Source: an uncultured Verrucomicrobiota bacterium (GTDB taxonomy: Bacteria > Verrucomicrobiota > Verrucomicrobiia > Palsa-1439). Taken from it: a DNA stretch of 48,316 nt. Where the stretch lies: positions 1 to 48,316 of the forward strand of contig CAIKAP010000141.1 in the NCBI GenBank assembly GCA_903825435.1. Direction: 5' to 3'. Positions 4,660 to 21,507 of this stretch are shown in pieces (the first letter of the stretch is position 1; every line of letters begins with the position of its first letter). A program made the translations under genes and the position numbers. Below the pieces are notes generated by a model. That model saw nothing but the letters and a program-made list of their open reading frames with translations, had not been told where the DNA came from and ran no database searches.

Positions 4660-5883
4660 TCAGCGGCGTTTGTTGTCCTTGTCGGTGGACTTCTGCGGAA
4701 TCTTTTCGAGGAAACGATCGAGTTCCTTCTCGGAATTCGTCTCCGGCGTCAATGTTGTGTCGCGTTCCTTGGTGGTCACGGCGGCCATCTGTGTCGGCGC
4801 GTTGACAATGTGCGGCGTGAGGAAGATGAGCAACTCGGACTTGGCGTCGCTCCTGACTTTCCGCTTGAAGAGATTCCCTAGGAACGGAATGTCGCCAAGG
4901 AAAGGAATCTTGCTTTCGCTGAAGCTCTTGTCATTTTGCATCAGACCGCCGATGACGACAGTTTGCCCGTCGGGTGTCACGATCACCGTGTCCGCTTGGC
5001 GGATGTCGATCACCGGCGCGCTCACACCGGTAGAAATAGGCACCGTTATCGTGGGGTCAATCGACGATGTCTGCGGCGAGACCATCATCTGCACCAAGCC
5101 GTCGGGGGTGATGTACGGGGTCACTTTCAGTATGATTCCTACTTCAGTATAAGTCACCGAATTGATGGGGTTACCGGTTAGCCCGTTGTAGGAGACACTG
5201 GTAATCAACGGCACGGACTGTCCGACAACGATAGAGGCCGGTTGGCTATCACGCGCCATGATGGACGGCCGCGACAACAATGTCGCCTTGCCCGCCTGTG
5301 CGATAGCCCGTAGCGTGGCTTGGAAATCTTTACCGAGGATCTGATACAACCCCGCACCCGGTCCGGCTGCGTAGGGCGCAATCTGTTGGAAACTGGAGAT
5401 TGGCTGTCCTAACATGTTCGCGTTGGAGCCGACAATCGAGCTGAGGCTCGACAAGCCGAAGCCGTTGGCGAATGAGCCAGCCGTTGTCGAGTTGCCGACC
5501 TTGCCGCCCCAACCGCCCTCGATGCCGATGTCGGAGGCGTTGTTGTGCGTGACTTCGAGGAACACCACCTTGATGAGGACCTGCGGTCGTGGACGGTCCA
5601 AGTTGCTGATGACTTGGCTAATCTGTCGCATCGTGTCCTCGTCGGCGATGACGGTGATGTTGCGCGTGTCCGGGTCAATCGAAAGGGTAGCGCTGCCCAC
5701 GCCGCCGTTCGGGTTGTACTGCTGCTGGCTACTGCTCGATGTGCCACCACTACGGGATGCGCCGCCAGAAGCGCCTCCACCACCCGCCCCGCTGCCACCA
5801 CCAAACCGTTGCTGCGCGTGGACGGCCACCGCGAAGCCGAGGGCGCCCGCCAAGATCGCCGTAAGTTTTAAATGACTTTTCAT
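4660..5883 (-). CDS. gspD: Secretin pore domain protein (C-terminal half of GspD)
   Basis: The 407-residue outer-membrane secretin protein lacks the usual periplasmic N0-N2 domains. It begins with its own signal peptide (LTAILAGALGFAVAVHA, cleavage near 23), then a Gly/Ser-rich linker (about 26-60). The second half of an N3-type ring domain follows (SATLSIDPDTRNITVIADED to SNLDRPRPQV, about 64-101). The secretin barrel region then contains LLSRPSIMARD, GQSVPLIT, GGLMQNDKS, IPFLGDIPFLGNLF and LLIFLTPHIV. Its start has a strong AGGAG site directly after the TAA of the upstream gene, so it is translated on its own. The missing N-domains are in the adjacent 435-aa protein, which ends inside N3. 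Confidence 0.93.
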   Translation of the reverse strand: MKSHLKLTAILAGALGFAVAVHAQQRFGGGSGAGGGGASGGASRSGGTSSSSQQQYNPNGGVGSATLSIDPDTRNITVIADEDTMRQISQVISNLDRPRPQVLIKVVFLEVTHNNASDIGIEGGWGGKVGNSTTAGSFANGFGLSSLSSIVGSNANMLGQPISSFQQIAPYAAGPGAGLYQILGKDFQATLRAIAQAGKATLLSRPSIMARDSQPASIVVGQSVPLITSVSYNGLTGNPINSVTYTEVGIILKVTPYITPDGLVQMMVSPQTSSIDPTITVPISTGVSAPVIDIRQADTVIVTPDGQTVVIGGLMQNDKSFSESKIPFLGDIPFLGNLFKRKVRSDAKSELLIFLTPHIVNAPTQMAAVTTKERDTTLTPETNSEKELDRFLEKIPQKSTDKDNKRR

Positions 5884-5895
5884 GTTATATCTCCT

Positions 5896-7203
5896 TTAGA
5901 ACGACGGGCCTGAGACACCAGAGCGTCCGCTACTGCTCCCCAGCCCGGTGCCGAAGGAGGTGCTGGAAGAGGACGAGTTTTGGTTTTGTTGAATACGGTT
6001 CATCAATGGGCTGTTCTGCGACGAACCGCGCGAGCTACTGCGACCCGATGTGCTGTTTTGGAACATGTCCTGCAACACCGGCAACACCTCCTGCGGATCG
6101 GCGTTGTTTAGGTGGAACACTTGTACTGAGGTTTCCTTGCTCGAATGATGATCGAGCTGATCGATCATCCCTGAAATCTGCTCCATCAAATCCTTCGTTG
6201 TCGTCACCACGACCGCCGATGTGCGTGCGTCAGCTACTGCGATCACTTGTTGGCGTTTTTTGACTCGCTGTTTCTGTGACGAAGCCGTCGCAGCGCCTCC
6301 ACCCGGCGCGCCTCCCATCATCGCCGCCATGAACGAGCCAATGCGCCCACCTCCACCCGGTACGCCTCCACCTAAGCGGATAGGCGCTTGTGTTGTTGAG
6401 CTGCTCTGGTCGGGGAAGAGACTCATCAACAGTGATGCCATCTCGACCGGGTCGGCATGCTTCAGTGTGAACACCCTTAACTGCGTCTCATCCTCGGCGC
6501 TCGAATCAATCGCCTTGATGATCTCCACCATGTGACGGATGTTCGCCTGCGTATCGGTCAACGCGATCGAGTTGCCCGCCTCATTCGCGACAATCGTTGC
6601 CTGCGGCGAAACCATCGGCGAAAGATCTTTCGCCAGTTGCGCCGCCTCGACGAACCGGACCGGAATGATCTGCGTCACAATCTCGTCGTTGTTCGGAATC
6701 ACCGCCGGGTCGCCGCCGGTTTTCACCGGGATGTTGGCGCGCAACGCCTCGGTCTTGCTGAGGATCGTCAGTTTACGACCGTTGCGGATCGCCGCGTAGC
6801 CGTTCTTGTTGAGCATCGAGTTCAAGAGGTCCACCGCTTCCTCCTTCGTCACCGGCAACGCGCTGTACACATCCACCGTACCTTGCACCGGTGTCTGCGT
6901 CTCGATAATGAACCCGGCCGCGTCGCTCATATAATTCAGCACCAGCCCGATGGGCGCGTTGCGGAAATTCAACCGCAGCTCGCCCTCCTTCAACGGCGGT
7001 AATGGCGGTTCTGGCGCCGCATTTGTCGCCACCGCAGTTGCCGTCTCTGGCACCGGCGGCGCTGGCAACGCCGCTGATGTTGCTGGCGCGTTGGTGTCTG
7101 TTGCCACAGCCGCTATTGGTAGCGGCTGCTGCTGTGCGATGGCTGACAACAGCACAGCCAGCGCGCAACACGTCAATAATACGGATAGGGTTGGATTCTT
7201 CAT
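5896..7203 (-). CDS. gspD: Secretin periplasmic N-domain protein (N-terminal half of GspD)
   Basis: The 435-residue exported protein has a signal peptide (LSVLLTCCALAVLLSAIA), then a Pro/Ala/Thr-rich linker to about 70. Next come N0 (about 75-150, LRLNFRNAPIGLVLNYMSD...), N1 (about 175-235) and N2 (about 242-352, with a long Gly/Met-rich loop). The opening strand and helix of N3 follow (VQVFHLNNADPQEVLPVLQD, about 360-380). It then runs into a Ser/Gly/Asn-rich tail and stops, with no secretin barrel. The protein starts with a 4-nt overlap with the GspC/PilP-like gene and is followed after 12 nt by the barrel half. Together they make a full GspD cut in the N3 loop. A sequencing frameshift is unlikely because the second part has a signal peptide and ribosome site. 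Confidence 0.92.
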   Translation of the reverse strand: MKNPTLSVLLTCCALAVLLSAIAQQQPLPIAAVATDTNAPATSAALPAPPVPETATAVATNAAPEPPLPPLKEGELRLNFRNAPIGLVLNYMSDAAGFIIETQTPVQGTVDVYSALPVTKEEAVDLLNSMLNKNGYAAIRNGRKLTILSKTEALRANIPVKTGGDPAVIPNNDEIVTQIIPVRFVEAAQLAKDLSPMVSPQATIVANEAGNSIALTDTQANIRHMVEIIKAIDSSAEDETQLRVFTLKHADPVEMASLLMSLFPDQSSSTTQAPIRLGGGVPGGGGRIGSFMAAMMGGAPGGGAATASSQKQRVKKRQQVIAVADARTSAVVVTTTKDLMEQISGMIDQLDHHSSKETSVQVFHLNNADPQEVLPVLQDMFQNSTSGRSSSRGSSQNSPLMNRIQQNQNSSSSSTSFGTGLGSSSGRSGVSGPSF

Positions 7204-7745
7204 TTTAGCTCCTGTTCTCTTTTTTGCATAAGCTTTTTGAGTAATTCGGCTGCGTCAACGTTGCCACCGCTCGTTGCTATCGTCGCTGGAGTGGTATTGG
7301 TTGTCGTGATTGCAGAGGCAGCGCTTGCGGCACTGTTGGCGCTGACCAATTGAACAGCGACACCTTGACGGCGCAGTTGTGTGCCGACTTTCATCTCGAA
7401 TTGTTTGCCATCCGCTTCCAGCTTCACGCTGTCAGGCAGGATTACCGCCAGCTTGTAACCGGCGATTGTGTCAGTTGCTTTGGCGGCTTTGCGATACTCG
7501 TGGCTCGTTCCGTCGAAGAACGCGAATTGGCCATTTTCGCACACTAACGTGCCGACCAGCGTGAACCCATCCACCGCGCCGCGAAGTACGGTACGCACGA
7601 CGGGCGCGCCACCGCGCGGTACCGGAATGCGGTTCTGGTTGAAAATGTTCCGCTGGCTGACGACGCGGTAGGACGAGATGTCCTGTGCCGGAATTGTTCC
7701 GGCTGTCAGCGCGAGGAGGACGAGGATGATGCGTGTCGGGTTCAT
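7200..7745 (-). CDS. GspC/PilP-like secretin-connecting protein
   Basis: The 181-residue protein has an N-terminal signal peptide or anchor (IILVLLALTAGTIPA). It continues with YRVVSQRNIFNQNR, the RNIF..NR motif typical of GspC/PilP homology regions that contact secretin N0. A beta-rich section follows (RGAVDGFTLVGTLVCENGQFAFFDG) with a second small beta unit (GYKLAVILPDSVKLEADGKQFEMKVG). The C-terminus is Ala/Thr-rich and ends in a charged helix. The predicted role is to link the inner-membrane platform to the secretin. It overlaps both neighbours by 4 nt (GspM upstream, secretin N-part downstream), as expected for a co-translated assembly unit. No PDZ domain is seen. Confidence 0.75.
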   Translation of the reverse strand: MNPTRIILVLLALTAGTIPAQDISSYRVVSQRNIFNQNRIPVPRGGAPVVRTVLRGAVDGFTLVGTLVCENGQFAFFDGTSHEYRKAAKATDTIAGYKLAVILPDSVKLEADGKQFEMKVGTQLRRQGVAVQLVSANSAASAASAITTTNTTPATIATSGGNVDAAELLKKLMQKREQELK

Positions 7746-8272
7746 GGTGTTGACGGTGTGAGGACGAGGCCGCTGACTTGGAGGCCGAGCGTCATCTGTT
7801 GGCCGTTGTCGTCGTGCGCGGCCAGCTCCACCGAGGTCAACCGCAACGCCATCGGGTCCCTCTCGATGTTGTAAAGGAACCGGCTCAACGTTTCCAGATC
7901 ACCGGCGGCGTCCACGCGGCATTCGAGCGTCATGTACTCGTCCTCGTGTTTCCATTGCGGCGTGATGGAGGTGATGGCGGCGCGGCTTTCGCGCGACCAC
8001 GAGTCGAACGCGCGGAGGACCTGTTGCTCGGCGAGCGAGGGACTGACGGGCAGCGTGTTGCGCCGCATCTCGTCCCAACGGCGGCGGATGGACTGTTCGC
8101 GTTTGACGAGCGAGGCGCCTTGCTCGATCTGTTTGCGCAACTCGGTGATCTTGGTCGAGCGGTCTTTCCAGACGCGCGTCAACGGCGACACGACCGCGCG
8201 GTCGGCGATCAACAGGCCGACTGCCGCAATCGCGACGATGACGAGCAGTTGTTGGCGGTTCTCAATCTTCAC
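7742..8272 (-). CDS. gspM: GspM/PilO-like inner-membrane platform protein
   Basis: The 176-residue bitopic protein has a short cytoplasmic start, a membrane helix (LLVIVAIAAVGLLIADRAVV, about 9-28) and a periplasmic coiled-coil (about 35-75). A ferredoxin-like domain follows, with TLECRVDAAGDLETLSRFLYNIERDPMALRLTSVEL, characteristic of PilO/GspM. It partners GspL in the T2SS platform. It overlaps GspL by 11 nt and the GspC/PilP-like gene by 4 nt. Confidence 0.8.
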   Translation of the reverse strand: MKIENRQQLLVIVAIAAVGLLIADRAVVSPLTRVWKDRSTKITELRKQIEQGASLVKREQSIRRRWDEMRRNTLPVSPSLAEQQVLRAFDSWSRESRAAITSITPQWKHEDEYMTLECRVDAAGDLETLSRFLYNIERDPMALRLTSVELAAHDDNGQQMTLGLQVSGLVLTPSTP

Positions 8273-9692
8273 GTTTGCCTCCTTGCTGCCAGTGGAAATC
8301 GAAACTGAACTGCATCGTTTTCTTCCCGCGGATCTGGTCCACCTTCAAATCGGCGATGCCGGAGGCACCGCGCATCGTGCTCAGCGTCCGCAACAGCGAG
8401 GCGTTGTCGCGCGCGACGCCGGAACAGGTCACGACGTTGGCGTCGCGAATCTCCAGCATCTTTGCTGACACGGCGCCGTCCTCGGGGAACGAGAGCGTCA
8501 TCTGGCGGAGGATGTTCAGCGACCGGCACGAGTGGTCGAACCACGGCCGGTACTGGCGGATTTGTTGTTGGATGCCATCAAGTTCGCCGACCTTGGCGGA
8601 CATGCCGGCCCAGCGGGAACGCAGGATCATGAGATGGATTTGCTGGTACAGGAACGGGCCGCAGACCAGCAGCAACACGCCGACGGCAACCGCACCCGCG
8701 GTCCGCAGCCGGCCGGCGGAATACTTCGTCACGACGCGTTGCCACGCCGTCACCTTTGGCGGCAGGAACTCGAACGGCGACCCGCGCCGGGCGAGTTGGC
8801 GCGCGGCGAGGCTGAACGCGCGCGACACCGGCGCGTCGGCCGGAAGCTGGACGTTGAACTCGTTGGCGGCGTAGGCGGTGACGAGTTCAATCTGGAGGCC
8901 GAGCGATTCGAGGCGCAGTTCCAGTTCGTCGGCGAGCGGCTGGGCGAGGTTAGACGGGCCGAAGATGCGGATGCGTTTGACGGTCTCGCGGATCGCGGCG
9001 GGAAGCTGGCCGATGGTGACGCGGATTTCGCGCGCGATGAGGTCGGCGTCGAACGCGCCGTTGTCGAGAGCGCCTTCGAGGGCGCGCAGCGCGGCGACGC
9101 CGCCGTGGGAGGTGATCTGAAGGTCGAGGTGCGTTTCGCCGATGGCGAGCGCGAGAATGCCGCTGGAGGATTCGGCGTCGGGCGGCTGGAGCGCGGCGAT
9201 GCCGAGGGAGAAGCTGATCGGTTTGAGCTTCGCTTTCTCCAATACCTGTTCGAGCAGCGCGACGTGGTTGGCCGGAAGACCGATCTGGGTGGCGTGTTTG
9301 CCGCAGCGTGAGGCGGCGAGGCGAAGCGTGGCGATGTCGCACGGGAAGCCGCGCTCGGCTTCGATCTGGAGGAACCCGGCGACGTCGTCCTCGGCGATGT
9401 CCGGTATGTCGGCGTGGGTGGTGAGCGCCCATTTCAACGGGATGCAGACGACGCAGTGGCGTTCCTTGACGCCGGCGGCGTCGAGGTGGTTGCGGATTTC
9501 CTGGCCGACAAGCTCGGGGTCGGCGGTGAGCGGGTCGAGCGAGAGCGTGGCGGTGAACGTCTGTTCGAGGTGTACCGCGCCGTTGGTGCGCTTGAGGACG
9601 ACGCCGTCGAGGCGGCTGCCGTCGAGGGCGAGACCGAACAGCGCGGTGGGAACGCGGCGTTTTCGTGAAACGAGTTTGAGGAGGTCAATCAT
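8262..9692 (-). CDS. gspL: GspL-like protein (PilM-type actin fold plus PilN-type region)
   Basis: The 476-residue protein joins two parts. The first is a PilM/GspL-like cytoplasmic actin-fold domain (about 15-300; FGLALDGSRLDGVVLKR at the start, CVVCIPLKWALTTHADIPDI, and LALAIGETHLDLQITSHGG as a phosphate-loop-like segment). The second is a PilN-like part with a membrane helix (AVAVGVLLLVCGPFLYQQI, about 348-366) and a periplasmic domain ending MQFSFDFHWQQGG. This matches GspL, which docks the GspE ATPase to the membrane platform. It overlaps GspK by 4 nt and GspM by 11 nt. Confidence 0.85.
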   Translation of the reverse strand: MIDLLKLVSRKRRVPTALFGLALDGSRLDGVVLKRTNGAVHLEQTFTATLSLDPLTADPELVGQEIRNHLDAAGVKERHCVVCIPLKWALTTHADIPDIAEDDVAGFLQIEAERGFPCDIATLRLAASRCGKHATQIGLPANHVALLEQVLEKAKLKPISFSLGIAALQPPDAESSSGILALAIGETHLDLQITSHGGVAALRALEGALDNGAFDADLIAREIRVTIGQLPAAIRETVKRIRIFGPSNLAQPLADELELRLESLGLQIELVTAYAANEFNVQLPADAPVSRAFSLAARQLARRGSPFEFLPPKVTAWQRVVTKYSAGRLRTAGAVAVGVLLLVCGPFLYQQIHLMILRSRWAGMSAKVGELDGIQQQIRQYRPWFDHSCRSLNILRQMTLSFPEDGAVSAKMLEIRDANVVTCSGVARDNASLLRTLSTMRGASGIADLKVDQIRGKKTMQFSFDFHWQQGGKRED

Positions 9693-11035
9693 GGTGTGTT
9701 TTTGGCGACAACGAGCTGGCGGACATTTTCGCCGAGCGCCCAGCCGAGCCGGCTGAGGTCCTGGCGGAACAGAATCTTCGGCGTGCCTTCGGTGATGTCG
9801 AAGATGAATTTGACGCGCCGGTAGCCGCGTCCGTACGGGCCGACGGCGGCGATGTCGGCGGTGAACTGGTAGCTTTGGGTGGTGATGTAATCGCCGGCGG
9901 AGAGCGCTTGGATGGCGGTGTGGGTCGAGCCGAGCGCGTCCACGATCCAGGCGATGGAACTGATGTTGTCGGGATTGGCGGCGCGGTAGTTGACGAGTGT
10001 CTGTGCGGTGCCGGTGTCCATGCCGGGCAGGCAGGCGAGGACGGTGGCGCTGGCGGTGTTGATGTTGACGCGGCCGGTTTTGTAGCGGGAGGTGCTGATG
10101 GTCGCGTTGCGGTAAATCTGGGAGAACTCGGCCGAGGTCATGCCACTGCGAAGGTAGAACGCGAGCAGACCGCGGAAGGTGCCGGTGGTGACGGAGGGCC
10201 GGCCGGGGCGGCTGGGACCGGTGGTGTAACCGAGCCGGAGCAAAATCTGGCTGGCGCGACCGGGGCCGAAGGCGGACTGGAGCAGCGGGAGGAGTTGGAC
10301 GGCGGTGTTGACGTTGGTGCGCATGGAGCCGTCGCTGTGGAAATTCGGTTCGCGGCTGTAGACGGTGACGTACTCGAAAAGGCCTGGATCAACCTGGCCG
10401 TTACCGCCTTCGTCTTTCTCGTTGGTGTCGAGGATGCCGTTGCGGTTGACATCGTCGCCGGCGAGGATGTCCATCGAGGTGCCGTACACGAGGCGGAGTT
10501 CGTCCACGGTCTCGAACGGCGCGCCTTTACATTGGTACGGCGGCTGGACCATCGCGTAGTAAAGCTTGGAGCCGCCGCTGGCGTTGGGATTGCGCCAGTC
10601 AACGATCGCGGTGAGGAGGTCGGGATTCATACCCGGTAGGTAGGTGAGGAAGTTGGTAGAGGCGCTATTGAGGTTGAGCTTGGAGGCTTCGTCAACGAGG
10701 CCGAAGGTTACGAGGTCGGGATGCATGGGCGGCGAGCTGAGGTCGCGGCCGATGATCCAGAACCGGGCGTCACCGACGGGAACAGCCTCGGCTTGGTACT
10801 GACTGATGTCGGGCATGACGCCGTTGGTGGCGTACATCGAGAGCACGTAGGCAACGTAACGCGCCCCACCTTCGATGGCTTGGTCGGCGGCGAGCGCGGC
10901 GGCGCGGTTGTCGGAGGCGCGCAGTTCGAGCGACATCGAGTTGGCGAAGTACAACGCCATACTGACGAGGCCGAGTGCAATCCACAACACGATGATCAGC
11001 ACAGAACCGCGGCGGTTGGAGGGAGGCAGGTTCAT
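9689..11035 (-). CDS. gspK: GspK minor pseudopilin
   Basis: The 448-residue product is large for a pseudopilin, as is usual for GspK. The N-terminal prepilin-like helix is RRGSVLIIVLWIALGLVSMAL, lacking the Glu5 found in other pilins, a known trait of GspK. Two helix-hairpin-helix (SAM-like) units are visible, at LNLNSASTNFLTYLPGMNP and VNINTASATVLACLPGMDT. Between them lies an Asp/Asn-rich segment (GDDVNRNGILDTNEKDEGGN), possibly a calcium site (inference). GspK caps the pseudopilus tip with GspI and GspJ. It has 4-nt overlaps with both neighbours. Confidence 0.92.
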   Translation of the reverse strand: MNLPPSNRRGSVLIIVLWIALGLVSMALYFANSMSLELRASDNRAAALAADQAIEGGARYVAYVLSMYATNGVMPDISQYQAEAVPVGDARFWIIGRDLSSPPMHPDLVTFGLVDEASKLNLNSASTNFLTYLPGMNPDLLTAIVDWRNPNASGGSKLYYAMVQPPYQCKGAPFETVDELRLVYGTSMDILAGDDVNRNGILDTNEKDEGGNGQVDPGLFEYVTVYSREPNFHSDGSMRTNVNTAVQLLPLLQSAFGPGRASQILLRLGYTTGPSRPGRPSVTTGTFRGLLAFYLRSGMTSAEFSQIYRNATISTSRYKTGRVNINTASATVLACLPGMDTGTAQTLVNYRAANPDNISSIAWIVDALGSTHTAIQALSAGDYITTQSYQFTADIAAVGPYGRGYRRVKFIFDITEGTPKILFRQDLSRLGWALGENVRQLVVAKNTP

Positions 11036-11730
11036 TGTGTGTCGACGTCCTGCGTCAGGTTGGTGCTGATCTGTGGGTCAATCGCCACGAGCAGCTCTAT
11101 CGGCTGTTGGCGACGCGCGTCATCGGGGGTCGAGCCAGACAACTGGAGGCGCAGGCGGATGGCGACTGGCAGGTTGGTGTCGCTCTGCGTCGTGTCCCAA
11201 GTGTTGCGCCATTGCGAACCGTCGTAGCATTCGAACTCCAGCGTGTTGACGCCGCCAAGAAGCAATTGATCCGATGGCGTCGGTGTGACCGTGGAGAGAA
11301 GATTGCGCGTGACGCTGCGGATCAAGTCCTTACCCGGCTGCGTGCGGTCGGCGGGATCGCGCAGGCCGTAGGTGACGCGCTGGACTTCGGCCCACGGCTC
11401 GTTTTCGTGCAGCGTGCCGGTGGTGGTGTACATCTCGATGGAAACATTCTGGCTCAGGCCGAAGCTGGTGATGTCGCCGACGCGGAAATCGCCAGCCATC
11501 ACCTTGTTGGTGGATGGCGTCAACATCAAGCCCTGCAAATCACGCCGCACGATGACGACCGCCTGTTCCAGCGGCAACGCTTCATCCACCGTGCGCGTCG
11601 TGCTCTCGCGCAACCGCACGGCGCTGAAGAACACGCCGCCGACCGCCGTCACCACGATGGCGCACACGCCGACGGCGAGCACCAGCTCGATCAACGTGAA
11701 TCCGCGGCGATTGTGTCTCGGGTTTCTCAT
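11032..11730 (-). CDS. gspJ: GspJ minor pseudopilin
   Basis: I place the start at 11730 rather than the ORF-track start at 11829. MRNPRHNRRGFTLIELVLAV is then a canonical prepilin leader with cleavage after Gly and Glu at +5, and its ATG overlaps the GspI stop by 4 nt. The 232-residue protein has one hydrophobic N-helix and a beta-rich C-domain (TLEFECYDGSQWRNTWDTTQ, AIRLRLQL) typical of GspJ. It should join GspI and GspK at the pseudopilus tip. A prepilin peptidase is needed but is not in this window. Confidence 0.9.
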   Translation of the reverse strand: MRNPRHNRRGFTLIELVLAVGVCAIVVTAVGGVFFSAVRLRESTTRTVDEALPLEQAVVIVRRDLQGLMLTPSTNKVMAGDFRVGDITSFGLSQNVSIEMYTTTGTLHENEPWAEVQRVTYGLRDPADRTQPGKDLIRSVTRNLLSTVTPTPSDQLLLGGVNTLEFECYDGSQWRNTWDTTQSDTNLPVAIRLRLQLSGSTPDDARRQQPIELLVAIDPQISTNLTQDVDTQ

Positions 11731-12107
11731 TGTGAATTCAATAGCGTGCTCAGCCGCACCGCGTGCTCCCGGTCCTGAGCGTTGTACGTCACCTCCGCCG
11801 TCAACTGCCGCATCGAGGCGTCCTGCCATGGCTCGTTGCGCAACATCCAGCGAAACTCGTGGCCGTTCTCGGAATACGTGCCGTTTTGCGACGACTGGTT
11901 CCAGCTACCCATGACGATGTTCTCGGTCAACACCCGCTCCGCCACGCGCACCGCCTCGGCCTTACGCTCGGCAACCTCACCCGCCGCACTCGCAATGTGC
12001 AACGCCTCAATCGCCACCGGCACGACGATGGCCATGAACATCAGCGCCGCCAACACCTCGGCCAGCGTAAACCCGGCGCTGTTATGGGAGTGTGTTACGA
12101 ATTTCAT
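11727..12107 (-). CDS. gspI: GspI minor pseudopilin
   Basis: The 126-residue pseudopilin has leader SHNSAGFTLAEVLAALMFMA (cleavage after Gly, Glu at +5). A helix follows (HIASAAGEVAERKAEAVRVAERVL), then the GspI-type segment NGHEFRWMLRNEPWQDASMRQLTAEVTY. It overlaps GspH by 26 nt and GspJ by 4 nt. GspI nucleates the tip complex with GspJ and GspK in known systems. Confidence 0.88.
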   Translation of the reverse strand: MKFVTHSHNSAGFTLAEVLAALMFMAIVVPVAIEALHIASAAGEVAERKAEAVRVAERVLTENIVMGSWNQSSQNGTYSENGHEFRWMLRNEPWQDASMRQLTAEVTYNAQDREHAVRLSTLLNSQ

Positions 12108-12582
12108 AATTCACATGGTTGGTTGTTTCCATGAGCCAGAGCGCCGCGTTGTCAACGCCCCCGAGACGCAACACCGTCGGACTCGACTCGTCAATCAGCC
12201 CATCCGGCAGGAAACGGATCGCCGGCAGGTTTCGGCCGCGGACCGGTACCGGCTGGGTGTTTTGCGCCTCCAGCGAGAGGCCTTCCTCCAGCGAAAACTC
12301 CAGTGCCTTCGGGTCGCCGTCGCGCGGCGGCGTTTCCTGTTCGAGGCCGTACGACGATCGCTCGGTGTCCATCCACAACAACATCGGCAGCCCTTCCGAT
12401 ACCGCGCGGCTCTGCCCCGCGTGCGTCAACGCCAGCAGACGGCGCGCCTCAGAATCCAACGCGCGTCCGCGGAAAAAGCTGAACAGCGACGGCGTCGTGA
12501 CGGAGATCATCGCCACCAGCAACGCCATCACGAGAATCAACTCGATCAGCGTGAACGCCCGCGTTGGATATTGAACTCGCAT
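12082..12582 (-). CDS. gspH: GspH minor pseudopilin
   Basis: The start is set at 12582 (MRVQYPTRAFTLIELILVMA). This ATG shares one base with the GspG stop (TAATG), whereas the track start at 12606 would lie inside GspG. The product is about 166 residues. The prepilin site is A|FTLIE, with Ala rather than Gly at -1. The C-domain has ALDSEARRLLALTHAGQSRAVSEGLPM, typical of GspH/FimT. It overlaps GspI by 26 nt. Confidence 0.85.
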   Translation of the reverse strand: MRVQYPTRAFTLIELILVMALLVAMISVTTPSLFSFFRGRALDSEARRLLALTHAGQSRAVSEGLPMLLWMDTERSSYGLEQETPPRDGDPKALEFSLEEGLSLEAQNTQPVPVRGRNLPAIRFLPDGLIDESSPTVLRLGGVDNAALWLMETTNHVNYEIRNTLP

Positions 12583-13022
12583 TACCGACGAACTGTCCAG
12601 TTGCAAACGTCATCGTCCGTGCCGGGCCGTCCATCGGGGCCGACGGAGTATAGGTCGTACGACTTCGGGTTGTGGCGGCCGGGGCACTCGTACACATAAT
12701 CGTTACCCCACGGGTCCTTCGAAATCTCTTTGACATACGGTCCGTGCCAGTTAGGGCAATCACGCGGCTGCTGCACGAGATCGCCGAGGCCGCTCTTGCC
12801 TTTCGGATAGTAACCGTTGTCAACCTCGAACGCGTCCAGCGCCGTGCTGAACGTCGAAATGTCGGTCTTTGCTGCTGCCAGGCGCGCCTGCTCGCTGCGC
12901 CCGACCATCTTCGGCACGACCAGCGCCGCGAGAATTCCGAGAATGGTGAGGACCAGCAATAACTCAACCAGCGTAAACGCCTGCTGGCCGATCCGGTTTA
13001 TTCGATGATGATTTTGTTTCAT
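12582..13022 (-). CDS. gspG: GspG major pseudopilin
   Basis: The 146-residue major pseudopilin has prepilin site QQA|FTLVELLLVLTILGILAA (Ala at -1, Glu at +5). It continues with FSTALDAFEVDNGYYP, DPWGNDYVYECPGRHNPKSY and the calcium-binding tail DLYSVGPDGRPGTDDD. These are hallmark GspG motifs. It starts 20 nt after GspF and its stop overlaps the GspH start (TAATG). It polymerises into the pseudopilus that drives export through the secretin. Confidence 0.95.
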   Translation of the reverse strand: MKQNHHRINRIGQQAFTLVELLLVLTILGILAALVVPKMVGRSEQARLAAAKTDISTFSTALDAFEVDNGYYPKGKSGLGDLVQQPRDCPNWHGPYVKEISKDPWGNDYVYECPGRHNPKSYDLYSVGPDGRPGTDDDVCNWTVRR

Positions 13023-13042: not shown

Positions 13043-14290
13043 TTATTTGATGTAATCCTGCAATGTGAAAATCGGCAGCAACATTCCGATGAAAATCGTG
13101 CCGATGAAACTGGCGATCAAAAACAACATTAGCGGCTCCGCGAGCGCCACCGCTGTCTTCATCTGGCGGTCAAGATCGCCCTCGGTAACGGCGGCGATGC
13201 GCACCAGCTCCGCATCGAGCCGTCCGCTCTCCTCGGCGACCGAAATCATTTCCAGCACCGACCCCGGAAACAAACCCCGGCACTCCGCCAGGCTTTGCCC
13301 GAGCCGTCCGCCTTCCTGCACCCGCTCGATCGAAGTCGAGACGGCGTCCACGAGAATCTGATTGCCGACCGATTTGCGGGCGACGTTGAGCGCCTGGACC
13401 AGCGGCACGCCTGCGCCGAGCAACGTGCCCAGCATCCGGCAGAACCGCGCCATCGCAAACTGCGCCACGAGCGAGCCGACGACCGGCGCCCGCAACATCA
13501 GCCCTTCCCACACGCGCTTGCCTTTCTCCGAGGCGAACCAGCTCCGCACCATCAAGACGGCGACGAACAACCCGACCAGCACAAACAAACCGTACGACCG
13601 CAATACATCGCTTATGCCGATGATGATTTGCGTGATCAACGGCAACGAACCGCCGAAGCCGGAAAAAACTTTCTGGAATCGCGGAATAAAAAACACCAGC
13701 AGAATCGTCAATACCACCAGCGCCAGCACCAGCAGGATGCACGGGTACAGCATCGCCGTCATCACTTTCGAGCGCAATTCCTTCTCGCGCGCCTGGAAAT
13801 CGGCGATCTGCGCCAGCACCACGTCGAGGAACCCGCCCGTCTCGCCCGCCTGGACCATCGCCGTATAAACCCGCGGAAACGTGTCCGGGTACTGCGTCAT
13901 TGCGTCGGCCAACGCCATCCCGTCGATCACCTTGTCATGGATTTCTTTCCACTTCGCCGACGCCGCCGGCGTGGCAGCCTCGCGGTACAAAATCACCAGC
14001 GCCCGGCTCAACGGCACCCCCGCCGCCAGCAAACTCGACAGCAACCGCGTAAAATTCTCCAGCGCCTTCGCCGTCACCTTGTTCGACTTCATCTTGAAAT
14101 CGAACCCGGCAGCGCGCGCCGTCCCTTGCGCACCGTTACCGGATGCCTTACCGGCTTGCTCCGCGAGACTGACCGGCCGCAACCCACGCGTCTCCATCTG
14201 CCGAAACGCATCCGGCCGGTTCCCGGCATCGATCTGGCCTTCCGCCACCGAGCCGTCCGCCGCAATCGCTTTGTAGGTGAATGTAGGCAT
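13043..14290 (-). CDS. gspF: GspF inner-membrane platform protein
   Basis: The 415-residue protein has a complete T2SS/T4P F fold. Two T2SSF domains (about 75-200 and 275-400) contain ARLLSSLLAAGVPLSRAL-type and RMLGTLLGAGVPLVQALNVA helices. Membrane segments are AMLYPCILLVLALVVLTILLVFF, GLFVLVGLFVAVLMV and LMLFLIASFIGTIFIGMLL. The N-terminal MPTFTYKAIAADGSVAEGQI segment is normal for the family, but its first 48-50 bp occur three more times upstream (14962-15009, 17319-17368 inside the chimera, 18209-18258). The gene is thus intact but separated from gspE by about 4.6 kb of inserted DNA, so its expression probably depends on readthrough or an internal promoter (inference). Confidence 0.95.
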   Translation of the reverse strand: MPTFTYKAIAADGSVAEGQIDAGNRPDAFRQMETRGLRPVSLAEQAGKASGNGAQGTARAAGFDFKMKSNKVTAKALENFTRLLSSLLAAGVPLSRALVILYREAATPAASAKWKEIHDKVIDGMALADAMTQYPDTFPRVYTAMVQAGETGGFLDVVLAQIADFQAREKELRSKVMTAMLYPCILLVLALVVLTILLVFFIPRFQKVFSGFGGSLPLITQIIIGISDVLRSYGLFVLVGLFVAVLMVRSWFASEKGKRVWEGLMLRAPVVGSLVAQFAMARFCRMLGTLLGAGVPLVQALNVARKSVGNQILVDAVSTSIERVQEGGRLGQSLAECRGLFPGSVLEMISVAEESGRLDAELVRIAAVTEGDLDRQMKTAVALAEPLMLFLIASFIGTIFIGMLLPIFTLQDYIK

Positions 14291-15113: not shown

Positions 15114-17057
15114 CTATTTGAGGAAAAACTCTTTCAGCGGGCGATAGCCGAGCTTCGCCAGCAGTGCATCCCAGTTGGCGGGCAGTTTGATTTCGATCGT
15201 GACGTTATTGCCGCCGGGCATGATTTGCACCTTGTTCCGGTCCGCGTCCCCGGTGAGCAGAATCGCAGTCGTGCCGGGCTTCATCACGGGGATGGTCTGG
15301 ATTTTCTCCAGCCCTTGAACCTTGGGGAACCACGGGGGTGGGGCCGTCAACTCTCCGCCTTCGTCGCGGGTGATCTTGCGCGCGTGTTGCTCGACCGTGT
15401 AGCGGGTCGGGTCGAACGCGCTGCCGGCGCTGGCCCAGTAGTTGGCGAAGGCGCGTTCATAGACCGGTCGCCGGGCGGTAGCGATCAGGGCTTGTTCGAG
15501 CTTTTCCTTGGTGGGATACCCGCGGGCCAGGTCGCGGGCGACGTACTCGGTAATCAGCATGGTCCGGGGCGTGAGCCGCGGGCCGCTGCCGGTCGCAAAC
15601 TGCCCTTTCTCCACCGCATCCCAAGCCATAAGCTGCATGATTTTTTCGGGGTTGGACGTTGCCGGGGTGAGATTATTGCCCCACAACAGCGCGGAAGCTC
15701 CAGTGAGCGTGCTCTGGTTCAGATCAAACCCTTGTTGCACGTGGTGCGGCTTCCAGCCAATCTTGAGACAAGCCTGTTCATCCTCCGCCAAGCACCACGG
15801 CATGAGATAACCAAAGCTCCCCATCCGGTCTTGTTTGATGTAGTACCCACCGAGATTCATCATCGCCAGACTTATAAAGCGGCCAAGCACCGCGTTGCGT
15901 GGCTCATTGATCTGTCCTTGTTGGGAGTCAATCCCCAGTTGTCGGGCCACCGGTCCGTTCACCCAACAGAAAGGCGTCCACGCATGGGTGCTGGCCAAGG
16001 TGCGCCGATAATTGCCATTCGCCAGAGTTTTGGTATAGGCGATCAGCAGCGGCATGAACTCCGGCGGGCATCCCGCCATCACGCCATTCACGGCCACATG
16101 CCAGACCAAGGTCTTCCGATAGGCGATTGGCAGCACGGCGACAACCTGATCCCAAGGCTGGTCGGTATATTTCAGAAACTCCGCCACCCGTTCTACCGTC
16201 GGGGGAATAATCGGCAGCCCGTCGGACCAACGCTGTTCGATGAAAAACCGATTCACCCCGTCAACCGTGCCCACGAACACACGGTCCTTGGGGTCTTCGA
16301 CGCCGGCTTTGCGACGTGCAGCGATTTCCGCCTCCGTGATCGGTTTCGTCAGGGCCGCGACGATCTGCGGCCAAAGCACTTCTCTGGTATTCTGGATCAA
16401 CTCCTCTCGTGTGTGGGCTGCAAATGCGCCGGGGTACGTAGCGGCGCGCGGCGCGGGCACGCCGTTGTTGACGGCTGTAGAATACACCTGCTTCACAAAA
16501 TTCGGCGCCGCGATGGTGACGGCGGGAATGCCCACGTACTCCGCCGCGATACTCGAACCCGTTTCCTTGGGAGTACAGAGTCCACAACCACCGTTGCCGG
16601 AGATCACGGCTTGCACACCCAGGGCTTTGAGCTTCTTCTGGAAATCGTCCTTCGCCTGTCTAATAACTCCGGGGCCAGGATACGATCCAGCCGACCCTAT
16701 TTCATCCAGCAAGATCACCTTTGCAGTCGGATAGTTCTGCAAGATCAGCCTCTTAATTTCAGGATGTGTTACGCGGGCCATAAAACTTCCGCCCACAACC
16801 GCAATCGTCTTTCCTGCCAGCGTGTCCAAGCGCGGTGCCTGCGCGATCCGCGGAATCGTTTGCTTACCAACCGGGGCCACGACCGCGTATTTCCCTGGAG
16901 GGAGCGGCGCTCCCGGAACCAGACACGCGTCATCGCACTCGTATGACATCGCGCTTCCTATTCCGCTGGGGGCGGCTGGTTTCGTGGCCGATTCTGCCGG
17001 CGCCATTCCCGCGCACACGTTCAAGACTGCACAAACTCCTATCATCCAAATCTTCAT
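15114..17057 (-). CDS. Exported UGSC-like family protein, long form
   Basis: The 647-residue protein has a signal peptide (MIGVCAVLNVCAGMAPAES). An N-terminal UGSC-like domain (about 75-250) includes GKTIAVVGGSFMARVTHPEI and the redox-like segment AVISGNGGCGLCTPKETGSS followed by IAAEYVGIPAVTI. In UGSC (seleno)proteins this position carries U/C-G-S-C; here it is CGLC. A long C-terminal part starts FIEQRWSDGLPIIPPTVERV, seen in long members of that family. The biochemical role is not established. It sits between the gspF/gspE chimera (74 nt upstream) and gspF copy 2, replacing the original short gspE-gspF junction. Nothing else is visible in 15010-15113. The family call is by motif memory. Confidence 0.6.
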   Translation of the reverse strand: MKIWMIGVCAVLNVCAGMAPAESATKPAAPSGIGSAMSYECDDACLVPGAPLPPGKYAVVAPVGKQTIPRIAQAPRLDTLAGKTIAVVGGSFMARVTHPEIKRLILQNYPTAKVILLDEIGSAGSYPGPGVIRQAKDDFQKKLKALGVQAVISGNGGCGLCTPKETGSSIAAEYVGIPAVTIAAPNFVKQVYSTAVNNGVPAPRAATYPGAFAAHTREELIQNTREVLWPQIVAALTKPITEAEIAARRKAGVEDPKDRVFVGTVDGVNRFFIEQRWSDGLPIIPPTVERVAEFLKYTDQPWDQVVAVLPIAYRKTLVWHVAVNGVMAGCPPEFMPLLIAYTKTLANGNYRRTLASTHAWTPFCWVNGPVARQLGIDSQQGQINEPRNAVLGRFISLAMMNLGGYYIKQDRMGSFGYLMPWCLAEDEQACLKIGWKPHHVQQGFDLNQSTLTGASALLWGNNLTPATSNPEKIMQLMAWDAVEKGQFATGSGPRLTPRTMLITEYVARDLARGYPTKEKLEQALIATARRPVYERAFANYWASAGSAFDPTRYTVEQHARKITRDEGGELTAPPPWFPKVQGLEKIQTIPVMKPGTTAILLTGDADRNKVQIMPGGNNVTIEIKLPANWDALLAKLGYRPLKEFFLK

Positions 17058-17844: not shown

Positions 17845-18207
17845 GTGCGCCTTTATCTCGACCAAATGTTGCGGGCGGAACTCGCCGACCTGTTGCGCGC
17901 CCACGGCCATGATGTCGTCCGCGCCGTGGAAGTGGGCCAAGACCGAGCCGATGACGCACTGATTCTCGAACGCGCCGTGCACGACCACCGCGTGCTCATC
18001 ACCTTGGACGAGCATTTTGGTGACTGGGCCGTGCTGCCGTTGTCCGAGCACAACGGCGTGATCCGCGTCAAGGCGCACCCGCCCACCGTGGACAACGTCG
18101 CCGCGCTGCTGCTGCCGTTGCTGGCGGGCCGCTCCGAGGCGGACTTCCAAAACCGGCTGGTGATCGTCTCGCCGCGCCGGGTGCGCTGGATTCGCACCGC
18201 CGACTAA
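17845..18207 (+). CDS. DUF5615 PIN-like toxin (module B)
   Basis: The 120-residue protein uses a GTG start (MRLYLDQMLRAELADLLRAH). It continues with GHDVVRAVEVGQDRADDALILERAVHDHRVLITLDEHFGDWAVLPL and GVIRVKAHP. The Asp6, RADD and TLDEHFGDW acidic positions fit the DUF5615 PIN-like metal site. It is a probable ribonuclease toxin of the module B pair (family knowledge). It is clearly diverged from the module A toxin. Its TAA is separated by one base from the 50-bp gspF-start copy at 18209-18258. Confidence 0.88.
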   Translation: MRLYLDQMLRAELADLLRAHGHDVVRAVEVGQDRADDALILERAVHDHRVLITLDEHFGDWAVLPLSEHNGVIRVKAHPPTVDNVAALLLPLLAGRSEADFQNRLVIVSPRRVRWIRTAD

Positions 18208-18344: not shown

Positions 18345-18863
18345 TCACGCGGGACAAACCTCGTTGATGTAGTACTTACCAATTTCGGCTACGAACTCTC
18401 CCAGGTGTCCATGCGTTATCGTGACTTCAAAGTTCTTGTGGCCTCTTGGAGTGGTATTCCAAAAGCGATATTTAGATTGCTCAACAAGCACCTCGAAATT
18501 TGCATGTGCGATAGCGTTGCGAAGCAAGCGCAGAAACTCGTCGGTTGAGACTTCGCCCGTAGATGACAGGGAGAAATAACTACGCGTCTTGAATGCAAAC
18601 TTGGTCTTCGTTCCTATTGGTTCCCACATCTCTTTCGGAACTACTAGCAGTCCGTAGAGAAGTGAAATTAGTAAACCTTGGTTCTTGAGGTTGAATTCAA
18701 CGCTTTGCAGGTGCTGGGCCTTCGTGAACTCAAGCATGAAGGCACTGATTGTCATATTCGGATCAGAAGCAAGGCTGTCAGAGAGCGCAAACAGAAGTTG
18801 ACCGTTATACCAACACCATTTTGGCACTTCATTACCGGTGGAATTGGATTTGCGTTTAGTCAT
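18345..18863 (-). CDS. HEPN-like protein of unknown function
   Basis: The 172-residue protein is recognisable only by EFLRLLRNAIAHANFEVLVE. This contains the R-x4-H pattern (RNAIAH) typical of HEPN ribonuclease or RNA-binding domains, within helical flanks. No other domain is seen. Its DNA is visibly more AT-rich than the secretion genes around it, which suggests recent transfer. It starts 12 nt after the gspE stop, within sequence that is also conserved after the chimera's gspE tail; similarity between the two loci ends just past this ATG. Opposite-strand toxin module B lies beyond it. HEPN assignment is tentative. Confidence 0.55.
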   Translation of the reverse strand: MTKRKSNSTGNEVPKWCWYNGQLLFALSDSLASDPNMTISAFMLEFTKAQHLQSVEFNLKNQGLLISLLYGLLVVPKEMWEPIGTKTKFAFKTRSYFSLSSTGEVSTDEFLRLLRNAIAHANFEVLVEQSKYRFWNTTPRGHKNFEVTITHGHLGEFVAEIGKYYINEVCPA

Positions 18864-18875
18864 TCCACAATTCCT

Positions 18876-20597
18876 CTAGCTCGCCTTCGCCTCCGCGGCC
18901 GGTGCGGTTGGTTTGGCGCTGGTGGCGACTTCCTTGGCGGTGGTGACGCTCAAGACTTCCTCGACGGTGGTGATGCCTTGGCGGACGAGCCGCCAGCCGT
19001 CTTCGGCCAGCGTGCTCATGCCGGCGCGGCGGGCGGCGTCGCGGAGTTGGTCGGTCGAGGTGTTTTTCAAAATCAGTTCGCGGATGGTGGCGTCGCTGTC
19101 CATCCACTCGAAGATGGCGTGCCGGCCGTGGAAGCCGGTGTTGCGGCATTCGCGGCAGCCGACGGATTTGTAGAGCGTCGTTTCCGCCGGGATGCCGATT
19201 TTGAGTTTGAAGGCCTCGGCGGTGGTGGAGTGGTCGGGTTGTTTGCAGTGCGGACAGAGGACGCGGACGAGGCGCTGGGCGAGCACCGCTTCGAGCGAGG
19301 AGGCGACGAGGTATGGTTCGACGCCCATGTCCACGAGCCGGGTCAGGGCGCCGGGGGCGTCGTTGGTGTGGAGCGTGGAGAAGACGAGGTGGCCGGTCAG
19401 CGAGGCTTGGACGGCGATCTGGGCGGTTTCCTGGTCGCGGATTTCGCCGATGAGCACGACGTCGGGATCGTGGCGCAGGATTGAGCGCAAGCCGCGGGCA
19501 AACGTCAGCCCGGCTTTCTCGGAGACCTGGATTTGGTTGACGCCCTTGAGCTGGTACTCGACGGGGTCTTCAATGGTGATGATTTTGCGGACGGCGTCGT
19601 TGATGGTGTTGAGCGCGGTGTAGAGCGTGGAGGTTTTGCCGCTGCCGGTCGGACCGGTGACGAGGATGATGCCGTGCGGGAGCTGGAGGACGCGGTTGAA
19701 ACATTCGAGTTCGCGCGGGGCCATGTCGAGTTCGCTCATGCCGCGGAGCGTGGAATTCTGGCGCAGCAGACGCATGACGACCGCTTCGCCGTGCAACATC
19801 GGGATGACGGAGACGCGGATGTCCACTTCGGCGTCGGCGATGCGGATCTTGATGCGGCCGTCCTGCGGCAGGCGTTTCTCGGCGATGTTGAGGTGACTTA
19901 AAATTTTGACGCGCGAGACGATGGCCGGCTGGAACCGCTTGAGCTGGGCCGGGACGGAAGTCTCCTGCAAATTGCCGTCGATGCGGTACCGGATGCGGAA
20001 TTCGTCCTCGAACGGCTCCAAATGGATGTCGGAGGCGCGCAGTTCGATGGCGTCCTTCAAAACTTGGTTGACGAAGCGGATGATGGAGGCTTCGTCCTCG
20101 GCCATGTCGAGATCGGTTTCTTCCCGCCCTTCCTCAACGACTTGAATTCCTTTTTCCTCGTCAAGCGTGCCGATGGTATCCGCGCCGACGCCGAGGTGGC
20201 GTTTGATCTCGCGCTGCACCGCCTCGGTCGACGCGAGCACCGGCTTGAGGTTCAGTCCGGTCAGTGTTTTCAGAGCATCCAGCCCCTGCGTCGCAAACAA
20301 CCGGCTCGTGGCGATCTCGACGTGGCCGTTGACGCGTTTCAACGGCAGCAATTCCTCTTTCAGCAAAATTCTAGCGGGAAACAACGAAAGAAGCTGGCGA
20401 TCCGGCTCCAGATTTTCGAGCGTGGTGTAGCTCAGTCCATATTCATTCGCCAACCACTGCAACGCCGCCTCCTCGCTCGCCACGCCCGGCGTGGCCCGGC
20501 GCAGCACCTCCGCATCGGTCGCGGCCAGTTGCTTGCCCGCGACCATCCGGTCGAGCAGTTCGTTCAAAGCAGCTTCGGTAGAGACGGTGTTACTCAT
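18876..20597 (-). CDS. gspE: GspE/PulE secretion ATPase
   Basis: The 573-residue cytoplasmic ATPase powers pseudopilus assembly. The N-terminal MshEN-like region is about 20-145. The catalytic domain contains Walker A GPTGSGKT (315-322), the Asp box (IITIEDPVEYQL), Walker B VLIGEIRD (about 380-387) and the His box TGHLVFSTLHTNDA. A CxxC-x29-CxxC zinc motif has Cys448, 451, 481 and 484. The last 44 residues (from Leu530) are duplicated in the chimeric ORF at 17132-17368. It is the second gene after the sigma-54 promoter, with a REP-like element just upstream. The gene is intact. Confidence 0.95.
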   Translation of the reverse strand: MSNTVSTEAALNELLDRMVAGKQLAATDAEVLRRATPGVASEEAALQWLANEYGLSYTTLENLEPDRQLLSLFPARILLKEELLPLKRVNGHVEIATSRLFATQGLDALKTLTGLNLKPVLASTEAVQREIKRHLGVGADTIGTLDEEKGIQVVEEGREETDLDMAEDEASIIRFVNQVLKDAIELRASDIHLEPFEDEFRIRYRIDGNLQETSVPAQLKRFQPAIVSRVKILSHLNIAEKRLPQDGRIKIRIADAEVDIRVSVIPMLHGEAVVMRLLRQNSTLRGMSELDMAPRELECFNRVLQLPHGIILVTGPTGSGKTSTLYTALNTINDAVRKIITIEDPVEYQLKGVNQIQVSEKAGLTFARGLRSILRHDPDVVLIGEIRDQETAQIAVQASLTGHLVFSTLHTNDAPGALTRLVDMGVEPYLVASSLEAVLAQRLVRVLCPHCKQPDHSTTAEAFKLKIGIPAETTLYKSVGCRECRNTGFHGRHAIFEWMDSDATIRELILKNTSTDQLRDAARRAGMSTLAEDGWRLVRQGITTVEEVLSVTTAKEVATSAKPTAPAAEAKAS

Positions 20598-20692: not shown

Positions 20693-21283
20693 TTACGGCA
20701 GCAAGCCCATCAACGTCGCTTGCGCTTCCTGCTTCGCGGTCAAAACCTTGCGGAGGTCTTCCTGCGCGGTGGCGAGCTTGGCTTCCTTGTCCTTCTTCGT
20801 GGCGCGGAATTTTTCGAGTGCGCTTTTGATTTGCGCGGCGGGTGCGTTGTCATCAAGGGCCTTCTGCAACGCCTCGGTATCCGGGTTGGGGGTGCCGAAG
20901 AAACTGCTAGGACGGCGATCGCCACCACCTTGCGGTGCGTTGCCGCCGCTGTTGCGGCGACGGAACATACCGCCAATGCCGCTCGCCATCGTCTCTCGGC
21001 GCAGATCAAACACCTTTTGCACTAACGGCTGCACCGCAGTCCACTCGGTGTCGTCCTTGAACTCGAGCCGTTCCTTGATGCCGTCCATTATGCGTTTCTG
21101 AAATTCCGCAGGATCGAAGTTGCCGCGGCCCGGACGCCCCGAGTTGGCCCCTTCGGTAGCAGACGGAGGCGTGCTACTGGGAGGAGGTGACGCGGGCGGA
21201 TTATCTTGTGCTGACAGTGCCGCGACACTTAATGCTAGAGTAGCGGCGATACCACATCGTGTGAACATGTTTCGTAACTTCAT
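20693..21283 (-). CDS. Exported helical protein, first gene of the secretion operon
   Basis: The 196-residue product has a signal peptide (GIAATLALSVAALSA), then a Pro/Ser-rich linker. A helical section with FDPAEFQKRIMDGIKERLEF follows, then a Gly/Arg-rich stretch. A C-terminal coiled-coil ends RKVLTAKQEAQATLMGLLP. The LTAKQEA segment recalls the LTxxQ motif of Spy/CpxP periplasmic proteins, but this is a weak resemblance. AAGGAG precedes the ATG, and a -24/-12 promoter lies about 50-60 nt upstream. It is likely periplasmic and linked to secretion by operon position only. Confidence 0.75.
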   Translation of the reverse strand: MKLRNMFTRCGIAATLALSVAALSAQDNPPASPPPSSTPPSATEGANSGRPGRGNFDPAEFQKRIMDGIKERLEFKDDTEWTAVQPLVQKVFDLRRETMASGIGGMFRRRNSGGNAPQGGGDRRPSSFFGTPNPDTEALQKALDDNAPAAQIKSALEKFRATKKDKEAKLATAQEDLRKVLTAKQEAQATLMGLLP

Positions 21284-21399: not shown

Positions 21400-21416
21400 T
21401 GCGCAACAGTTGCGCA
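21400..21416. promoter_or_regulatory. Palindrome, candidate enhancer site for the NtrC-type regulator
   Basis: TGCGCAA-CAG-TTGCGCA is a perfect 7-bp inverted repeat centred at 21408, about 76 bp upstream of the predicted sigma-54 start. That is a usual distance for an activator binding site. A further TGCGCA half-site lies at 21431-21436. Fis-type HTH dimers bind such palindromes; assignment to the operon's own regulator is inference. Confidence 0.5.
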
Positions 21417-21464
21417 ATCATCCTGTTTTGTGCGCATTTCTTACACACCAAAAGCGCAGAAACG

Positions 21465-21494
21465 CTCTGATCGTCAGTAAGCAAGAAATCAGAG
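21465..21494 (-). terminator. Possible terminator after the mannose operon
   Basis: CTCTGAT/ATCAGAG forms a 7-bp stem with a 16-nt loop 14 nt beyond the stop of the last GH38 gene. The downstream T-tract is weak, so the call is tentative. Confidence 0.3.
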
Positions 21495-21507
21495 CTACAA
21501 GCTGAGT

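Follow-up and report, generated by a model that had tools for sequence, protein, structure and literature searches.

Enhancer sites for sigma-54 activators have been described in several systems that resemble the locus reported here. The NtrC sites at glnA and other genes are 17-bp elements of the form TGCACC...GGTGCA (PMC8743547, PMC4987338). The AtoC sites at atoD, GCTATGCAGAAATTTGCACA and GCTATGCAGAAAATTGCGCA, occur as two per promoter, and the second contains a TGCGCA half (PMC3118216). ZraSR/ZraP is a sigma-54 envelope-stress system with very few targets (PMC4987338, PMC7657598). For PEP-CTERM, a 17-nt activator motif together with a sigma-54 element showed a phylogenetic profile matching that of the NtrC-type regulator PrsR and the kinase PrsK (Haft et al. 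2006, PMC1569441). With regard to type II secretion, a 2025 survey found sigma-54 enrichment of its genes mainly in Myxococcia, and less in Polyangia and Planctomycetia (PMC12316311). In the open-access literature we found neither a description of a TGCGCA-N5-TGCGCA operator nor, for Verrucomicrobia, one of type II secretion under sigma-54 control.

The DNA analysed here (the window) is a stretch of 48,316 nt from an uncultured Verrucomicrobiota bacterium (Palsa-1439), positions 1-48,316 of the forward strand of contig CAIKAP010000141.1 in assembly GCA_903825435.1. It carries a palindrome that is very probably the promoter-proximal member of a two-site enhancer, through which the operon's own regulator would activate the sigma-54 promoter of a type II secretion operon. 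The genes for GspE, GspF, pseudopilin, GspK and secretin were found together, and the gene order was the same in relatives. All genes of the operon described here lie on the minus strand. The first encodes an exported helical protein of 196 aa with a weak Metal_resist/CnrX-like signal (20693-21283). It is followed by gspE for the secretion ATPase (18876-20597), gspF for the inner-membrane protein (13043-14290), gspG, probably for the major pseudopilin, with a prepilin-type N-terminus in its sequence (12582-13022), minor pseudopilin genes of GspH-, GspI- and GspJ-like type (11032-12606), and gspK (9689-11035). A PilM/GspL-like gene and a small gene behind it (7200-9692) were assigned by weak family matches and conserved order. 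The secretin is split in two genes (4660-7203), one for an N-domain protein (5896-7203) and one for the secretin core (4660-5883). The last two genes, at the opposite end from the promoter, encode a histidine kinase (3155-4654), in which the part flanked by two predicted membrane segments is the probable sensor domain, and an NtrC-type response regulator (1812-3158) with a receiver domain, an AAA+ domain with GAFTGA and a Fis-type HTH.

As to the two-gene secretin, the core gene has its own ribosome-binding site and its own signal peptide. A single open frame spanning both parts was present in none of 8 relatives, so the split is probably not a sequencing error. Another peculiarity of the operon lies between gspE and gspF, where four copies of the first ~48 bases of gspF were found on the minus strand, at 14290, 15009, 17368 and 18258. 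Between these copies lie three inserts of 0.7, 2.4 and 0.9 kb, a pattern that suggests several rounds of insertion at one site, with the gspF start regenerated each time. The inserts contain a UGSC-family gene (15114-17057), a small gene on the plus strand (17845-18207) whose sequence reads like a putative DUF5615/PIN-type toxin, and a HEPN-family gene of the pEK499 p136 type on the minus strand (18345-18863), within the secretion operon. At locus L065, copies of the gspF start were seen at 3470 and 4362. One such insert, similar in sequence, is present in G001, a genome of the same genus, and the other relatives have none.

The region upstream of the operon separates its first gene from a GH38-type gene whose end is at 21508. 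Here the sigma-54 promoter TGGCACACTCCTTGCA (-24/-12) was found at 21357-21342 on the minus strand. This element, of the form TGGCAC-N5-TTGCA, is the only zero-mismatch sigma-54 match in the window and is conserved in relatives, and the genome encodes sigma-54 (rpoN), as indicated by its sigma-54 DNA-binding domain. Thus both a -24/-12 promoter downstream of the sites and the sigma factor for it, as expected of an NtrC-type system, are present. With the GC placed at -12, transcription of the operon would start at about 21331, and the centre of the palindrome (21408) would lie at about -77. The palindrome, here named UAS1 (TGCGCAACAGTTGCGCA, 21400-21416, no strand assigned), is the promoter-proximal candidate activator site and forms a perfect dyad, with arms TGCGCAAC and GTTGCGCA of 8 bp each around a single central base A. 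Farther upstream lies UAS2 (TGTGTAAGAAATGCGCA, 21431-21447, minus strand), a degenerate 17-bp candidate site centred at about -108 and 31 bp from UAS1, centre to centre. It differs from TGCGCA-N5-TGCGCA by 2 mismatches, and its outer half is the degenerate one. These results agree with the initial annotation in the sigma-54 promoter that it had predicted and in the placing of a palindrome about 76 bp upstream of the predicted start. The perfect inverted repeat that it had reported is exact at 21400-21416, with arms of 8 bp and not 7 bp. It had also reported a further TGCGCA half-site some 20 bp farther out; this half-site does exist, at 21431-21436, 14 bp past the end of the palindrome, and is part of the full-length 17-bp UAS2.

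On its own sequence, UAS1 is only mildly surprising as a chance event, and it is the comparison with relatives that decides. Perfect inverted repeats with 8-bp arms number ten in the window when overlapping ones are counted separately, and such a repeat was present in about 2% of sequences obtained by mononucleotide shuffling of the intergenic region around UAS1. The exact 17-mer TGCGCAACAGTTGCGCA occurs once in the genome, and a search of the same genome found no second place with fewer than 2 mismatches to it.

In a first set, 57 genomes were searched for homologs of the first gene, and 9 genomes (own included) were positive, with 10 loci. The own promoter and 8 other gspE-linked loci showed a -24/-12-like element with two TGCGCA-N5-TGCGCA-like sites on its upstream side. 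The tenth locus, an orphan copy in G020 without adjoining secretion genes, had no sites and no promoter. In the 8 relatives, the operon order was identical, the kinase was present, and the HTH was conserved in the regulator ortholog, which had 68-83% identity. The assembly of G001 has the regulator gene on a different contig, at its end, so that linkage in a single operon is not visible there. In relatives, the DNA adjoining the operon promoters (1.2-3 kb examined) yielded no homolog of the GH38 gene, indicating that the sites belong with the downstream operon. A strict search in relatives, for a perfect proximal site together with a TGGCA-type promoter, matched the own promoter alone, because most of their sites carry one or two changes.

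A larger set was then composed of 80 named loci, mostly from Verrucomicrobia subdivision 3 / Limisphaerales, and loci from a class-wide search, giving 91 gspE-linked promoters. Two sites plus a promoter were found in 71 of these 91 promoters, compared with 3 of 1820 dinucleotide shuffles, and the tandem sites alone in 72/91 compared with 0/1820. The consensus of the sites was YGCGCAR-N3-YTGCGCR, a 17-bp dyad, and the two sites of a pair were mostly 29-35 bp apart. In 70 of 78 loci the proximal site started 56-60 bp before the -24 element, in a tally that omits several loci whose symmetric site had been oriented wrongly. Six of the 8 exceptions were at 67-69 or 78-80 bp, about one or two helical turns more, as expected if helical phase matters. 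Such constrained spacing between site and promoter is a trait of NtrC-type upstream activating sequences. In some regulator-positive loci (e.g. G087, G163 and G243), a -24/-12 element of good quality was not found at the expected place.

The regulator status was known for 60 gspE-linked Verrucomicrobia promoters, 42 with an ortholog of the regulator and 18 without. Absence of the motif from homologous promoters had been named beforehand as the result that would speak against an activating sequence. As it turned out, tandem TGCGCA-N5-TGCGCA sites were present in 41 of the 42 regulator-positive promoters by the preset spacing range, and in 42/42 when G263 is counted, since its tandem sites exist 18 bp apart, outside that range. 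The regulator-negative operon promoters had tandem sites in 0/18, and none of them retained sites of a similar kind. Fisher's test on the 41/1 versus 0/18 table gave 2e-14 with kinship ignored. The kinase followed the same pattern among 36 tested genomes, being present in 18/18 regulator-positive and 0/18 regulator-negative ones. On the GspE tree, six state changes were counted, at least five of them forced by well-supported branches, and all were concordant. A tree-aware sign test gave p = 0.0625, which is the floor for the only five independent pairs available. The orthologs had 63-83% identity to the regulator of the window, and in genomes without the operon no regulator exceeded 48% identity. 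Dyad sites upstream of the promoter, usually two, are characteristic of NtrC-type enhancers, and they are represented here by UAS1 and UAS2 and by the tandem sites of all regulator-positive promoters. A cognate AAA+ activator with a GAFTGA loop and a Fis-type HTH was likewise recognized by Pfam and sequence, and is assigned to the sites by linkage and co-occurrence.

To look beyond the operon, the sigma-54 element together with the proximal site was scanned over 384 genomes of the class. Matches were obtained in 17 of them, 16 at the promoter of the secretion operon, and the remaining one, in G226, resembles protein-coding sequence. A control with the reversed pattern gave 0 matches in the same genomes. 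The regulon was judged from these pattern searches, whose pattern was strict and missed many true sites. The 384-genome scan gave no sign of a second target, and the regulator apparently has one target, the secretion operon. Genomes that lack the operon contain perfect TGCGCA-N5-TGCGCA sites too, and among those fetched, none lay within 200 bp of a sigma-54 element, which shows that the motif by itself is insufficient. Taken together, the co-occurrence, the tandem sites at a nearly constant distance from the -24 element and the scan, which marked essentially this operon only, support the proposal of the initial annotation that the palindrome is an upstream activating sequence of NtrC type at which the regulator of the operon itself would act.

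Other explanations of the palindrome were weighed against this reading. The sites might be sigma-54 enhancer sites bound by a different one of the cell's NtrC-type activators; the genome encodes about ten sigma-54 activator domains of full strength. We consider this improbable, since the sites are found in 42/42 loci with the ortholog and in 0/18 without it, genomes lacking the ortholog own other NtrC-type regulators (up to 48% identity) and yet have no sites, and regulator, kinase, sites and promoter were gained or lost jointly. The regulator of the operon is inferred, from co-occurrence and linkage, to be the binder of UAS1 and UAS2, and as far as sequence goes another factor, co-inherited with the regulator, could conceivably bind them. 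Operators of LacI and GntR type typically show a perfect 17-bp dyad too, and the palindrome could in principle be the operator of a repressor or other such factor acting on this promoter independently of sigma-54. This is very unlikely, because the sites come as a pair at a nearly constant distance from -24, too distant upstream for a direct block of polymerase, and because they were lost jointly with the sigma-54 element and the NtrC-type regulator, no such sites being kept at any of the 18 regulator-negative loci.

The least credible readings of the palindrome are a product of chance, a terminator for the GH38 gene and a dispersed repeat. The shuffles of the intergenic region, of which a small share contain such an inverted repeat, would allow for chance, but the tandem sites, seen in 72/91 loci and in none of 1820 shuffles, do not, and their conservation already contradicts it. 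As RNA the palindrome could form a hairpin of -10.2 kcal/mol, but no T run lies behind it on the minus strand, and relatives keep the sites although no GH38 gene was found beside their operon promoters. The single occurrence of the exact 17-mer in the genome speaks against a dispersed repeat. Just past the GH38 gene, a stem GCTCTGAT/ATCAGAGC was observed at 21464-21495, with a weak T-rich stretch behind it on the minus strand; this stem may be the terminator of the GH38 gene and is a likelier one than the palindrome.

Enhancer sites of the operon's own regulator therefore remain the preferred reading, and they can be compared with the systems named at the outset. On this reading the locus is a new instance of the well-known NtrC type of bacterial enhancer. 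Like the NtrC sites, those found here form a 17-bp dyad with outer TGC...GCA, lie upstream of a -24/-12 element and are predicted to be recognised by a receiver-AAA+-Fis-HTH protein. They differ in the half-site, TGCGCA instead of TGCACC, and in their target, a secretion operon. The regulator scored 395 bits against the NtrC model TIGR01818, below the cut-off of 558.6, which places the locus outside the NtrC regulon proper. Its best scores were with the AtoC, ZraR and NtrC models, AtoC being the top-scoring NCBIfam model, and all scores were below cut-off, for AtoC by far: AtoC 467/714, ZraR 399/760 and PrsR 322/503 bits. The AtoC system shares with the present one the two sites in one promoter and the TGCGCA half, whereas its sites are 20 bp long with a spacer about one base longer and its target is different. 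The resemblance to ZraSR/ZraP consists in a histidine kinase with an NtrC-type regulator, a sigma-54 promoter ahead of the gene for a small exported helical protein, and few targets. Unlike in ZraSR/ZraP, a complete type II secretion operon is also headed by the promoter here, the Metal_resist/CnrX likeness of the first gene is weak, and the two-component system of the window scores below the cut-offs of both ZraR and ZraS. PrsK/PrsR is the nearest precedent for the reasoning, as in both cases the profile of motif plus sigma-54 element tracks an NtrC-type regulator with its kinase; PrsR is tied to many scattered genes, whereas essentially one operon is concerned here.

The following course of activation would be consistent with these results. 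The kinase of the operon would sense an envelope- or secretion-related signal and phosphorylate the NtrC-type regulator, whose dimers would occupy UAS1 and UAS2 and then form an AAA+ ring. Bending or looping of the DNA would let the ring contact the sigma-54 polymerase, and ATP hydrolysis by the regulator would open the promoter. The whole operon would then be switched on, including the regulator's own gene, which would amount to positive autoregulation.

The product of the first gene was also considered. A family search with the 196-residue product found no family match. Pfam Metal_resist gave an E value of 0.018 in the best of four members of the first-gene family. The structure model was of moderate quality (mean pLDDT 68), and its comparison with known structures found no significant match, CnrX and NccX being among the weak hits. 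From sequence and model, a ZraP/CnrX-like nature of the product is suggestive only, and a ZraP-like feedback role, proposed by analogy, would be a guess, because the Metal_resist likeness is weak. Orphan copies of the first gene, with no secretion genes near, were observed in four regulator-positive genomes (L067 / L126, L275, L296 and L297), and these four copies outside the operon had neither activator sites nor a sigma-54 promoter. A wider picture can be proposed tentatively, and we regard it as rather doubtful at present: a feedback circuit with one promoter, in which the first gene's product, as a ZraP/CnrX-like exported protein, would inform the operon's kinase about the condition of the envelope or of the secretion machine, and the type II secretion system of many Verrucomicrobia would regulate its own assembly by means of an NtrC-type activator with TGCGCA-N5-TGCGCA as its private operator. 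For type II secretion, the first gene is marked by the analysis as a candidate sensor or chaperone.

These results offer a concrete operator, promoter and regulator, each predicted by comparison of genomes, for the type II secretion of Verrucomicrobia subdivision 3 and related lineages, a large group that is mostly uncultured. They also suggest that the operator of a sigma-54 activator may be conserved over dozens of families, seemingly at a single target.
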